Source of the DNA: Acidobacteriota bacterium
GTDB taxonomy: Bacteria; Acidobacteriota; CAIWXX01
DNA length: 35,358 nucleotides
Assembly (NCBI GenBank): GCA_016191015.1
Contig: JACPPM010000171.1
Coordinates: 1 to 35,358, forward strand
Direction: 5' to 3'
Shown one piece after another: positions 8,730 to 12,820 of this stretch. The notes under the pieces are model-generated. The model ran no database searches. It worked only from the letters and a program-made list of their open reading frames with translations, and was not told the origin of the DNA. The translations under genes and the position numbers were made by a program. How positions within the stretch are numbered: the first letter of the stretch is position 1; every line of letters begins with the position of its first letter.

Positions 8730-10151
8730 TCAGAGACGGGCTCTGAACCCGGCCTTGGTCAGTTCCTCGGCCAGCTTCTGAGCTGAGGTTCTGGATGGGT
8801 CGAAACTGATTGTCGCCGTTTTCGCCCTGTAGTCCACGACCGCATTCAGCACGGCAGGATTCGTCGCCGCGATTCGTTTGCAGTCGGCAGCCGTGACGTC
8901 GCACTCCACGCCTTCCACGTGGAAGGTGATCGTGCGGACCTCGCCCGCCTGCCCGTTGTGCGGAGAATTCTGTGTGGGAACCGCAATGTCACCGCCGAGG
9001 AATCGGGTGGCGTACTGCGGAAAGGCGCCGAGGAGGATCACCAGGGCGCCGCCGATCCACAGGGCTGGTCTGGTCCTCTTCCTGATCCGGATTGCTGTGT
9101 CGTCGGCGAGGCACGCGCCGGCACCTGAGCTTCCGGCATACGCGAAATAGAAACCGAGAGCGAGCATGGCGGCCGCGGCGGTCAGGAAATAGGGACGATG
9201 CGCCGCGAACCATGCGCCCGCGGCGAAACCACCCAGGCCGAGCGAGGCGAACACGAGGGGGCCGATCGTGCAGAGGCTCGACGTGAAGGCCGCGAACAGG
9301 GAGCCGGCCAGCGCCAGGCTCTGCGGTATCGTCCGGCGCAGTCGTCCCACCTCCATCTGCGGTCTCCTCGCCGTGATCACCACCGAGATGGCACCGTACT
9401 GCCTCGCCACCTCCCTCGTGGAGGGACTTGAACTGTAACCGAAGTAGTCGAGTCGCCTGATGATTCCCACGTCCTCGAAGCCGGCGGCGCGGATCAGTCG
9501 CATGTACAGCGATTCCGGCACGGCCCCAACCACGCACTCGGCCCAGAGCTGCGGGTCCTTTCTCGCACTCGCGGACGGCTCAGTCCGCAACACAATGTCG
9601 GCAATCTGTAAGCGGCCGCCCGGCTTCAGAACCCGGTAGATTTCTCGGAACGCGCCGGCTTTTTCGGGAACCAAATTGATCACCCCGTTGCTCGTGACGG
9701 CGTCGAGCGAGCCGTCCTGCAGCGGGATCGATTCTGCGTTCCCCTCCAGGATCTGGGCGTTGTGCACCCCCGCCTCCTCGAGGACCGCCCCCGCCTTCCC
9801 CCGCATGGCCGGCGTGACATCGATCCCGATCACACGCCCCGCCGGGCCCACCTTGCGTGCGCAGATAAGCAGGTCTGTGCCGGACCCACAGCCGATGTCA
9901 AGCACCGTCTGCCCCGGTCCGATCGCGCCCGCAATGAACGGGCAGCCGGTCCCCGCATAAGATTCCACGGCCCTCGAAGGAACCCCATCGAGGTCGTCCG
10001 AGGAATACCCGGTGATTTCGCAGCCCGCCCTGCCGGTCGGGAAATGAAACTGACTGGAGGGAGCCTCGGCGACCTCCGTGTACATGTCCTGTACGGCTTC
10101 AAAAATCCTCCGGCGCAATTCCTGAGGATCCGAGGTTGGTGAAACAACCAT
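8730..10151 (-). CDS. arsM: ArsM-like methyltransferase fused to MerT-like transporter and HMA domain
   Basis: A 473-residue three-part protein. Residues 1-265 are a SAM methyltransferase of the arsenite methyltransferase type: SAM loop VLDIGCGSGTD (83-93), IGIDVTP, SNGVINL (154-160), YRVLKPGGR and the conserved Cys206 in LWAECVVGAV. Residues 278-386 have three hydrophobic helices resembling MerT (SLCTIGPLVFASLGLGG, then RPALWIGGALVILLGAFPQY), with single rather than paired cysteines. Residues 405-473 are a MerP/HMA-like metal-binding fold with an atypical GVECDVTAADC (Cys-x6-Cys). The ATG at 10151 has GGAGG six bases upstream. It is third after the ECF sigma and anti-sigma genes. It may combine uptake or efflux of a thiophilic metalloid with its methylation; the actual element is not known. 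Confidence 0.88.
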   Translation of the reverse strand: MVVSPTSDPQELRRRIFEAVQDMYTEVAEAPSSQFHFPTGRAGCEITGYSSDDLDGVPSRAVESYAGTGCPFIAGAIGPGQTVLDIGCGSGTDLLICARKVGPAGRVIGIDVTPAMRGKAGAVLEEAGVHNAQILEGNAESIPLQDGSLDAVTSNGVINLVPEKAGAFREIYRVLKPGGRLQIADIVLRTEPSASARKDPQLWAECVVGAVPESLYMRLIRAAGFEDVGIIRRLDYFGYSSSPSTREVARQYGAISVVITARRPQMEVGRLRRTIPQSLALAGSLFAAFTSSLCTIGPLVFASLGLGGFAAGAWFAAHRPYFLTAAAAMLALGFYFAYAGSSGAGACLADDTAIRIRKRTRPALWIGGALVILLGAFPQYATRFLGGDIAVPTQNSPHNGQAGEVRTITFHVEGVECDVTAADCKRIAATNPAVLNAVVDYRAKTATISFDPSRTSAQKLAEELTKAGFRARL

Positions 10152-10231
10152 TGCTTGCCTCCGCCCCTCTTCGTGTCCTTCCTGTCCGATTCGACGCCTG
10201 CGCTGCCCGACAGTTCCCGCCTCCCGTGGCT

Positions 10232-10477
10232 TCACCCCCCTTCGATCAGCGATTGCACCCTCGCCCGAAGCTCTCCCGAAGCCGGGTTCGCCTTCAGCCT
10301 GGCCATTCTCGCCTTCAGGAGGCGCTCGAATTCTGCGCGGTCGAAACAATGCCGGCACGTCGCCAGGTGCGTCCGCATCTCGACAAGCGAGACTCCTTCC
10401 AGCGCACCATCGACGAAATCAAACACTTTCCGCAACGCTTCCTGACAGTTGAGCTGTTTCGCTTTGCTTCCCGTCAT
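10232..10477 (-). CDS. Zinc-binding anti-sigma factor (ZAS type)
   Basis: The 81-residue soluble protein has the zinc-dependent anti-sigma motif with Cys11 and H37-x3-C41-x2-C44. This is the thiol-zinc centre known from RsrA-like regulators that release their sigma factor when the cysteines are oxidised or bound by reactive metals. Its ATG overlaps the TGA of the ECF sigma gene (ATGA at 10477-10474), so the two should be made in step. No transmembrane segment is present, so it is a cytoplasmic sensor. Given the downstream methyltransferase, arsenic, mercury or selenium compounds are plausible inducers, but this is inferred. The longer open frame upstream (to 10546) is just the sigma gene in another frame. 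Confidence 0.85.
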   Translation of the reverse strand: MTGSKAKQLNCQEALRKVFDFVDGALEGVSLVEMRTHLATCRHCFDRAEFERLLKARMARLKANPASGELRARVQSLIEGG

Positions 10478-11094
10478 TCTTTCAACGCCTCCTGGCGCGA
10501 ACGCCTCCTGCTGACTCCGAAGCCCATCTCTTGAGCGCATCGCCACAGCTTCCGCTGAAGCATGCTTCTCGCGCGCGCCAGCCGGCTCCGAACAGTGCCG
10601 ATCGGGATGTCCAGAGACTCGGAGATCTCTGCATAGGACAGTCCTTCCACATCACTGAGAAGTATCACGACCCGATGATCCTCACAGAGCTCCGCGAGCG
10701 CACGGCGAATATCCTCATCCATGAGCTTGTTGGTGAACTCTCGCTCGGGGTTTCCCCACCAGAGCAGAAAGGGGTGGGAAAGCTGTTGAAACAGTGAGAA
10801 GCTCCCTGCGTCGTCCTCGCCCTGCACCTCCTCGTAGCTGACCTCCTGACGCGTCTTCTGTTTACGACAGGAGCTGAAGAAGGCGTTGGTCAAGATCCGG
10901 AAGAGCCACGGCTTCACCTTTGACCTGTCGCGGAGCTCCCGGAAATTCTCACACGCCCTCATCACCGTTTCCGCCACCAGGTCTTCCGCAACACTGTGGT
11001 TCCTGCACAGGTGCACCGCCAAGGCATGCATCTCGTCCAATAGGGGCAACACCACGTCGCTGAATTCCCGACGTTCCTCGTCCGTCAATGACAT
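10474..11094 (-). CDS. ECF RNA polymerase sigma factor
   Basis: The 206-residue protein has sigma region 2 (about 12-80, including SVAEDLVAETVMRACENF and KPWLFRILTNAFFSSCRKQ) and region 4 (about 130-185, with LSYAEISESLDIPIGTVRSRLARAR as the helix-turn-helix), and lacks regions 1 and 3, as expected for extracytoplasmic-function sigma factors. It is the first gene of the set sigma, anti-sigma, ArsM-MerT-HMA. A matching ECF promoter lies just upstream, suggesting autoregulation. The C-terminal basic tail (SRRRSRQEALKE) overlaps the anti-sigma start. Confidence 0.94.
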   Translation of the reverse strand: MSLTDEERREFSDVVLPLLDEMHALAVHLCRNHSVAEDLVAETVMRACENFRELRDRSKVKPWLFRILTNAFFSSCRKQKTRQEVSYEEVQGEDDAGSFSLFQQLSHPFLLWWGNPEREFTNKLMDEDIRRALAELCEDHRVVILLSDVEGLSYAEISESLDIPIGTVRSRLARARSMLQRKLWRCAQEMGFGVSRRRSRQEALKE

Positions 11095-11143: not shown

Positions 11144-11247
11144 CCCGTCCGTTCCCCAATCCCACGATACGGTCGTCAGAGGGAACTTTTTCTTCCTGCT
11201 CGCATCTTGTCATGTGACCGAGGGCAGTCAGAAGAAATGGGGAGAAC

Positions 11248-12042
11248 ATGAGCTCAACTATAGTCACCATTCCGGAGGTTGATCTGGAAGGGTTGCGGTG
11301 CGCGATCCGAGAGGAGTATGCGGAAGTGGCCCGCCGTCCGGAGAAAGGCTTTCACTTCCACACGGGCCGGTCTCTGGCCGAGCGGCTCGAATACGATTCA
11401 TCTTGGATCGATGCGGTTCCCGCGACGGCCGTCGAGTCGTTTGCCGGGACGGGCAACCCGTTCCGATCGGTGCAGATCAAACAAGGAGATCGGGTCGTGG
11501 ATGTCGGATCCGGAGCCGGGATGGACAGCCTCATCGCCGGCGGATTGGTCGGACCGGGAGGCCACGTGATCGGTGTGGATATGACGGGTGAGATGCTGGA
11601 GAAGGCCAGAGACGCCGCTCTCCGATCGGGAATCGGCCATGTCGAGTTCCGCGAGGCGTGCGCGGAAGCCTTGCCGGTCGCGGATGGCTGGGCGGATGTC
11701 GTGATCTCGAATGGCGTCGTCAACCTCTGCCCCGACAAGCTCGCCGTGCTCCGCGAGATGTACCGGGTCCTCAAGACAGGAGGAAGACTAAGCGTCGGCG
11801 ATATCCTGGTCCAGAAGCCCGTCTCCGAGAAGACGAGGACCAGAATCGATCTGTGGACCGGCTGAATCGCCGGCGCTCTGCTGGAAGCAGAGCTCACAGC
11901 CGTGGCCGCCGCCGCGGGGTTCGAAGGCTTCGAGATAACTCGGCGGGTGGATGTGTTCAGCGGAGCTCCGCAACAATCACACGCCGCCGCGTTCGGAACG
12001 CTGGGGATCAACTACCGAGCCCGTAAACCGGATCGTTCCTGA
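11248..12042 (+). CDS. arsM: Candidate selenocysteine-containing ArsM-like methyltransferase (TGA at 11863-11865 = Sec206)
   Basis: Read through one in-frame TGA, this is a 264-residue SAM methyltransferase. It aligns without gaps to the ArsM part of the fusion at 8730-10151 over the first 206 residues: HTG at 38-40, AVESFAGTGNPF at 61-72, VVDVGSGAGMD at 83-93, SNGVVNL at 154-160. The TGA falls at residue 206, where the paralogue has Cys206 (LWAEC against LWTG-TGA). This Cys matches a catalytic cysteine followed by xxGA in ArsM enzymes. Beyond it, IAGAL and AAAAGFEGFEITRRVDVF continue the homology to a TGA at 12040. A SECIS-like hairpin follows at the right distance. GGGGAG (11239-11244) precedes the ATG. 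It is divergent from the ECF operon. A recent nonsense mutation is the alternative. Proof needs selA, selB and tRNA-Sec elsewhere in the genome. Confidence 0.82.
11871..11902 (+). promoter_or_regulatory. Bacterial SECIS-like stem-loop after in-frame TGA
   Basis: Eight perfect base pairs form between GCTCTGCT (11875-11882) and AGCAGAGC (11886-11893), leaving a GGA loop that begins 17 bases after the TGA. A lower stem CGGC (11871-11874) with GCCG (11899-11902) extends it past a five-base bulge. Loop size, a G among the first two loop bases and the distance from the UGA all fit the accepted bacterial SECIS consensus. It lies inside the continuing reading frame. Confidence 0.78.
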
Positions 12043-12316: not shown

Positions 12317-12820
12317 ATGAAAAGGAGATCTGTCTTCGCATTCGTTATGGCCGCCTCTCTGGGGATGGGCCTCACACCGCTCGAAGGTATCCACAGTGCA
12401 CAAGCTCAAGAACGTCCCAACCCCCAACAATCTACTGCCACCACCCTTTATCAGCGCCTGGGCGGGGTCTACGCCATCGCCACGGTGGTGGATGACTTCA
12501 TTGAGCGGCTGCTGGTGAACGATATCCTGAATTCAAACCCGGCCATCAAGGAGGCGCGAGCGCGTGTTCCGAAGGCGGGGCTGAAATTCCAGGTGACGGC
12601 GCTCGTCTGTCAGACCACCGGCGGACCTTATGCCTATGCCGGCCGCACCATGAAGGATGCGCACAGGAAGTTGAACATCACCGAGAAGGAATGGCGGGCG
12701 ATGCTCGACGATTTCAAGAAGACGCTGGACAGGTTCACCGTCCCTGCCCAGGAGCAGAAAGAGCTGTTCGCCATCGTGGAATCCACCAAGGGGGACATCG
12801 TTGTGGCGTCTGCACATTGA
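12317..12820 (+). CDS. Exported group 1 truncated hemoglobin-like protein
   Basis: The 167-residue protein starts with a Sec signal peptide (MKRRSVFAFVMAASLGMGL, cleavage likely after SAQA at about 30). It continues as a truncated globin: LYQRLGGVYAIATVVDDF (44-61), then YAGRTMKDAHRKLNI, where His116 fits the proximal heme ligand, then WRAMLDDFKKTL. Truncated globins bind O2 or NO and are usually cytoplasmic; a periplasmic one may serve in NO or peroxide handling or electron transfer. AAGGAGGAG lies just before the ATG. It follows the methyltransferase in the same direction but with a repeat between, so co-transcription is uncertain. Confidence 0.85.
   Translation: MKRRSVFAFVMAASLGMGLTPLEGIHSAQAQERPNPQQSTATTLYQRLGGVYAIATVVDDFIERLLVNDILNSNPAIKEARARVPKAGLKFQVTALVCQTTGGPYAYAGRTMKDAHRKLNITEKEWRAMLDDFKKTLDRFTVPAQEQKELFAIVESTKGDIVVASAH

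Follow-up and report, generated by a model that had tools for sequence, protein, structure and literature searches.

A probable selenoprotein gene for a standalone ArsM-like methyltransferase in an Acidobacteriota genome

The gene at positions 11248–12042 (+) of the window, by which we mean the whole 35,358-nt stretch of Acidobacteriota DNA that was analysed, was judged to be a genuine selenoprotein gene with selenocysteine (Sec) at UGA codon 206, and we put the probability of this reading at roughly 0.93. Its product would be a 264-aa ArsM-like SAM-dependent methyltransferase. The first-pass annotation of this DNA had inferred Sec insertion from the frame alone, and the inference was supported by Sec/Cys exchange among relatives, a covarying SECIS hairpin, purifying selection after the TGA, and the finding that the source genome carries selA, selB and a selD with a UGA of its own. 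The substrate of the enzyme was a separate matter, on which two readings had to be weighed.

The in-frame TGA and its exchange with cysteine

The open reading frame begins with an ATG at 11248, carries a single in-frame TGA at 11863–11865 (+), which is codon 206, and ends with a terminal TGA at 12040–12042; a Shine-Dalgarno-like GGGGAG, read directly from the sequence, lies upstream of the ATG at 11239–11244 (+). Codon 206 falls in the motif W-T-G-U-I-A-G, a UxxG motif, and readthrough yields 58 residues C-terminal of it, which are the residues that a standard gene caller, ending the protein before codon 206, had been said to lose. Both parts of the frame aligned at 42–43% identity with one paralogue (8730–10151, −), placing the same methyltransferase family on both sides of the TGA, and the TGA stood opposite Cys206 of that paralogue. 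Direct reading and alignment therefore bore out the earlier description of one frame split at 11863, matched on both sides and facing a cysteine. The alignment had also been described as ungapped up to residue 206; this held from about residue 19 to 206, while a 4-residue gap was present within the first 20 residues, and a 3-residue gap followed past residue 206.

From GTDB genomes a scan retrieved 80 loci, and the rows counted here are the 81 homologues at 46% identity or more, window row included. The first-pass annotation had proposed examining homologues for Cys or TGA at codon 206, and both occurred: TGA in 70 of the 81 rows, TGC or TGT in 11, and any other codon in none. The Sec rows spanned 12 named phyla, with Pseudomonadota, Chloroflexota, Actinomycetota and Acidobacteriota contributing most, and were drawn mainly from metagenome-assembled genomes, but also included named Pseudonocardia, Actinomycetospora and Enhydrobacter strains; Cys forms were present in Glycomyces strains. 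Among the first 99 genomes, the closest hits beyond the window (G002, G030 and G068, at 61–63% identity) all had TGA at the equivalent codon, as did a partial copy (G079), a broken copy (G076) and a relative at 43% identity (G053). The occurrence of TGA at this codon was not attributable to chance, because relatives at 59–70% identity kept it there without any further internal stop. A maximum-likelihood tree needed four changes between Sec and Cys, two of which were forced by well-supported branches.

Cys161 was present together with Sec206 in 52 of the 70 Sec rows and with Cys206 in none of the 11 Cys rows. This association was rejected as an independent signal, as it follows phylogeny and provides only two independent pairs on supported branches. 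Two Sec gene copies approximately 10 kb apart were observed in one Anaerolineales genome (L111:7-762 and 10001-10762). The copy in G076 (L101:7016-7402) retained its start region, TGA and SECIS while missing the central part of the gene, and was either decayed or misassembled.

Lesions downstream of the TGA had been named beforehand as a sign of a pseudogene, and none was present after it. In the comparison of the window with L110, dN/dS was approximately 0.15–0.18 on both sides of the TGA, and wherever dS could be estimated, dN/dS was low and similar before and after; both flanks are under purifying selection. The codons of the hairpin described below were frozen, being mostly 0.8–1.0 identical among same-residue codons, compared with about 0.5 elsewhere.

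The SECIS hairpin and the selenocysteine machinery

A bSECIS hairpin, GCTCTGC-TGGAA-GCAGAGC, was located at 11875–11893 (+), with 9 nt between the UGA and the hairpin and a UGGAA apical loop beginning 16 nt past the UGA. It was evaluated against published constraints and by covariation, with Cys members and slid pairs as controls. The constraints call for a loop of 3–9 nt, a stem of 4–16 bp, a G in the first two loop positions, a loop located 16–37 nt after the UGA, and an energy of at most −7.5 kcal/mol; the window hairpin lay within all of these, at −11.7 kcal/mol and with its loop 16–17 nt after the UGA. It also fits the published bSECIS loop model N1-G-G-N-N2 (PMC13188914).

Taken alone, the window hairpin was insufficient as proof, since a 7-bp stem arose in about 1.6% of recodings of the hairpin stretch with random synonymous codons and a lone-sequence folding test was not significant by itself (z = −1.5), and comparative evidence was therefore used. 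Among TGA members, 96.7% of cells formed the seven stem pairs, versus 45.5% among Cys members, a control that shares the protein-level constraint, and the slid-pair control paired in 29–47% of cells. In 12 diverse TGA members, pairing was 100%, with 11 both-side changes and a covariation of 0.48 versus 0.01–0.08 for slid pairs; the exchanges in their stems were C-G/G-C, U-A/C-G/G-C and G-C/C-G/U-A. A fixed-rule scan found a hairpin at or below −7.5 kcal/mol in 59 of 73 TGA rows and in 3 of 16 Cys rows. A search with Rfam gave no match within the window. Three further TGA-split frames with SECIS-like hairpins, returned by a mechanical scan of the window (26071 +, 33701 + and 17206 −), appeared chance-like and were set aside.

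A search of the genome for selA, selB, selD and tRNA-Sec had been proposed with the original inference, and the first three were found, whereas tRNA-Sec was not found in the draft. The source genome held selA (502 bits), selB (344 bits) and selD (325 bits), all above curated cut-offs. Its selD has an in-frame TGA of its own, in DCAG-U-ASKL (L022, minus strand, about 2439–1393), the usual Sec position of SelD, and this SelD is probably a selenoprotein too. In six other loci (L151, L160, L171, L183, L184 and L185), the methyltransferase gene has selA, selB or selD no more than 6 kb away.

Within the 349-contig draft, tRNA-Sec was not found by two covariance models, for which 150 candidates were scored each, by BLAST with the tRNA-Sec of a same-family genome, or by anticodon-loop and T-arm patterns. 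The candidates examined were rejected as tRNA-Ser, -Leu, -Trp, -Gly, -Arg, -Tyr, -Ala or -Val, as tmRNA, or as a tRNA-Ser(GCT) truncated at the edge of a contig. A search with RF01852 gave tRNA-Sec at 62–76 bits in five relatives, one of them of the same family. The missing tRNA-Sec is a hole in the Sec argument for the source organism. Its most likely cause is presumably an assembly gap, a plausible reading given that the assembly consists of so many contigs and another tRNA gene is cut at a contig end. The severed tRNA-Ser(GCT) was located at the end of contig C187.

Recent loss of selC in this lineage would account for the repeated negative searches in a genome rated complete, and would mean that the UGA now terminates translation of a gene that still looks intact; it is very improbable given that selA, selB and selD are intact, that selD keeps its UGA, that a same-family genome has tRNA-Sec, and that the draft is fragmented to the point of cutting another tRNA gene. 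A pseudogene or sequencing error, with the TGA a stop or a miscalled Cys codon, could draw on the same absence of tRNA-Sec from the draft though it is found in relatives, and is very improbable in view of the same TGA in 69 other rows, the lesion-free downstream frame, the covariation of the SECIS and the selection past the TGA.

Fold, ligand positions and known relatives

The AlphaFold2 model, built from a 40-sequence alignment, had a mean pLDDT of 93, and its best PDB matches were all ArsM/AS3MT, supporting an ArsM fold for the 264-aa protein. Alignment to solved structures placed residue 206 at the Cys of the GEC motif in CmArsM and CrArsM, i.e., Cys224 of CmArsM. The positions of CmArsM C72 and C174 were occupied by T68 and G156, and at the residue 156 motif NG stood in place of NC throughout the clade relatives listed. 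At most two of the four CmArsM cysteines (44, 72, 174 and 224) were kept, the alignment stopping short of position 44, and the selenoprotein falls short of the at least three of four cysteines used as a criterion in a survey of ArsM (PMC5552862). The first-pass annotation had labelled the protein ArsM-like and its residue 206 as a conserved As(III)-binding cysteine position; the fold and the match to Cys224 upheld this in part, and the absence of the other arsenite-ligand cysteines did not. With residues other than Cys at the C72 and C174 ligand positions, the ArsM fold does not by itself imply methylation of arsenite. His36 of the FHFHTG motif was invariant in the 40-sequence alignment.

Selenoproteins of this kind have been catalogued before. 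PMC13188914 lists a Sec-containing arsenite methyltransferase (NF008823, motif UxxG, WP_011987699.1, citing Fomenko et al. 2007), together with the ArsM-type or related fusion selenoproteins NF041537 ArsM_AhpD_UU, NF041536 ArsM_DUF2284_UU and NF047649 methyltransferase/UXPK-star (Haft and Tolstoy 2025). As listed there, the NF008823 selenoprotein is likewise an ArsM-type methyltransferase with Sec in UxxG. Compared by model score and listing, the window protein reached 217.9 bits against the NF008823 cut-off of 263, and the closest clade member tested (L130) reached 257 bits. The N-terminal methyltransferase parts of the three fusions were among the best family matches (231.5, 206.9 and 191 bits, respectively), with UxxG common to all, and the window protein was far below their cut-offs of 510, 575 and 460. 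Going by their names and that listing, these fusions have a second domain with a further Sec, in contrast to the window protein, which is standalone, with one Sec in 264 residues. Other clade members also scored under the curated cut-offs. As the scores fell under every one of these four cut-offs, the clade is unnamed by the curated models, and the window protein is a known kind of selenoprotein methyltransferase belonging to that standalone clade.

The window protein also shares its fold and the Cys224-equivalent position with CmArsM, CrArsM and human AS3MT, all of which have several conserved As(III)-ligand cysteines, whereas the window protein keeps only the Sec position. TtArsM of Thermus thermophilus was reported to be functional with a single catalytic Cys and two His as proposed ligands (PMC8649762). 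It uses Cys, not Sec, and is likened to the window protein by this reported single-Cys mechanism.

Neighbouring genes and candidate substrates

The Cys-containing paralogue (8730–10151, −) encodes 473 aa, in which an ArsM-like methyltransferase (about residues 1–265) is fused to a MerT-like membrane segment plus an HMA domain (284–470); the NF033556 MerTP fusion model scored 83 bits over residues 284–470, under its cut-off of 180, and HMA gave E = 2.4e-8. This union of domains may reflect a common soft-metal substrate. The two methyltransferase genes are separated by a sigma/anti-sigma pair (10232–11094, −), composed of a SigH/SigR-like ECF sigma factor divergent from the selenoprotein gene (10474–11094, −; TIGR02947, E = 6e-38, under cut-off) and an RsrA-like zinc-finger anti-sigma factor with HxxxCxxC (10232–10546, −; zf-HC2, E = 1.7e-8; TIGR03988 RsrA, E = 2.3e-12, under cut-off). 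A gene for a truncated bacterial globin (PF01152), whose N-terminus is signal-like, was observed just downstream of the selenoprotein gene, at 12317–12820 (+).

The same sigma factor and a second methyltransferase were found beside relatives in L138, L146, L152, L162 and L188, and a second divergent methyltransferase with TGA at the equivalent codon was present at L130:11354-12004, L138:1455-2015 and L146:11574-11005. Recurring neighbours of the relatives were ArsR-rhodanese (20 loci), an MFS transporter (11), DsrE (10) and OsmC (9). Arsenic genes were absent among the window genes scanned, and none was prominent among the families recurring beside relatives in the subset of flanking ORFs scanned. 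The SigR/RsrA-like pair and the Cys paralogue fused to a MerTP-like transporter point to thiol, metal or metalloid stress, and the neighbourhood as a whole suggests a response to thiol, chalcogen or metal(loid) stress and not the layout of a classical ars operon.

In the mechanism we propose, SelB would insert Sec at UGA 206, aided by the hairpin immediately downstream, and Sec206, as the equivalent of CmArsM Cys224, would be the catalytic chalcogen ligand of a standalone SAM-dependent methyltransferase. Its selenolate would bind a soft electrophilic acceptor and present it to SAM. With the remaining arsenite-ligand cysteines absent, the selenolate would have to bind the acceptor with help from other ligands, perhaps His36, invariant in the FHFHTG motif, or, in most Sec members, Cys161. 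Expression of the locus is probably turned on by the divergent SigR/RsrA-like pair in response to thiol or metal stress. The substrate class is most likely a soft metal(loid) or chalcogen compound, with arsenite as one candidate.

Two readings of the substrate are both compatible with Sec insertion. That the enzyme is a Sec-dependent methyltransferase for a soft acceptor other than arsenite (mercury, selenium, tellurium or reactive sulfur species), acting within a redox-stress regulon, is a serious possibility that stops short of being probable. The fusion of the adjacent paralogue to a MerTP-like transporter, the adjoining SigR/RsrA-like pair and the neighbours that recur beside relatives all point toward it; this support is indirect and contextual, and the analysis identified no homologue known to act in this way. 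The enzyme could instead be a true arsenite methyltransferase that uses Sec for Cys224 and methylates As(III) for resistance, a reading we consider rather doubtful. ArsM/AS3MT proteins are its closest homologues by both sequence and fold, the key ligand position is invariably Cys or Sec, and, since TtArsM was reported active with one Cys plus two His (PMC8649762) and the clade has the invariant His36, arsenite activity may be within reach of the window protein. Against this stand T68 in place of C72 and G156 in place of C174, the clade-wide NG for NC, the three-cysteine minimum of the survey (PMC5552862), the NF008823 score of 218 versus 263 bits, and the absence of an ars operon among the nearby genes scanned.

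One tentative reading, with less than even odds, is that the selenoprotein represents a widespread, mostly Sec-encoded standalone clade in which an ArsM fold without the arsenite site may carry out selenolate-dependent methylation of another soft acceptor, be it mercury, selenium/tellurium or reactive sulfur species, with a SigR/RsrA-type redox switch and a Cys/Sec paralogue in tandem.

The family is mostly selenoprotein (70 of the 81 sampled, in 12 named phyla), and its members are easily annotated as short fragments, because a standard gene caller truncates the proteins by 58 residues. The absence of the classical arsenite cysteines calls for caution against counting genes of this clade as arsM in surveys of arsenic methylation. 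The natural Sec/Cys pairs, with Cys in Glycomyces and Sec in Pseudonocardia and Actinomycetospora, make the value of selenium in methyl transfer directly testable.
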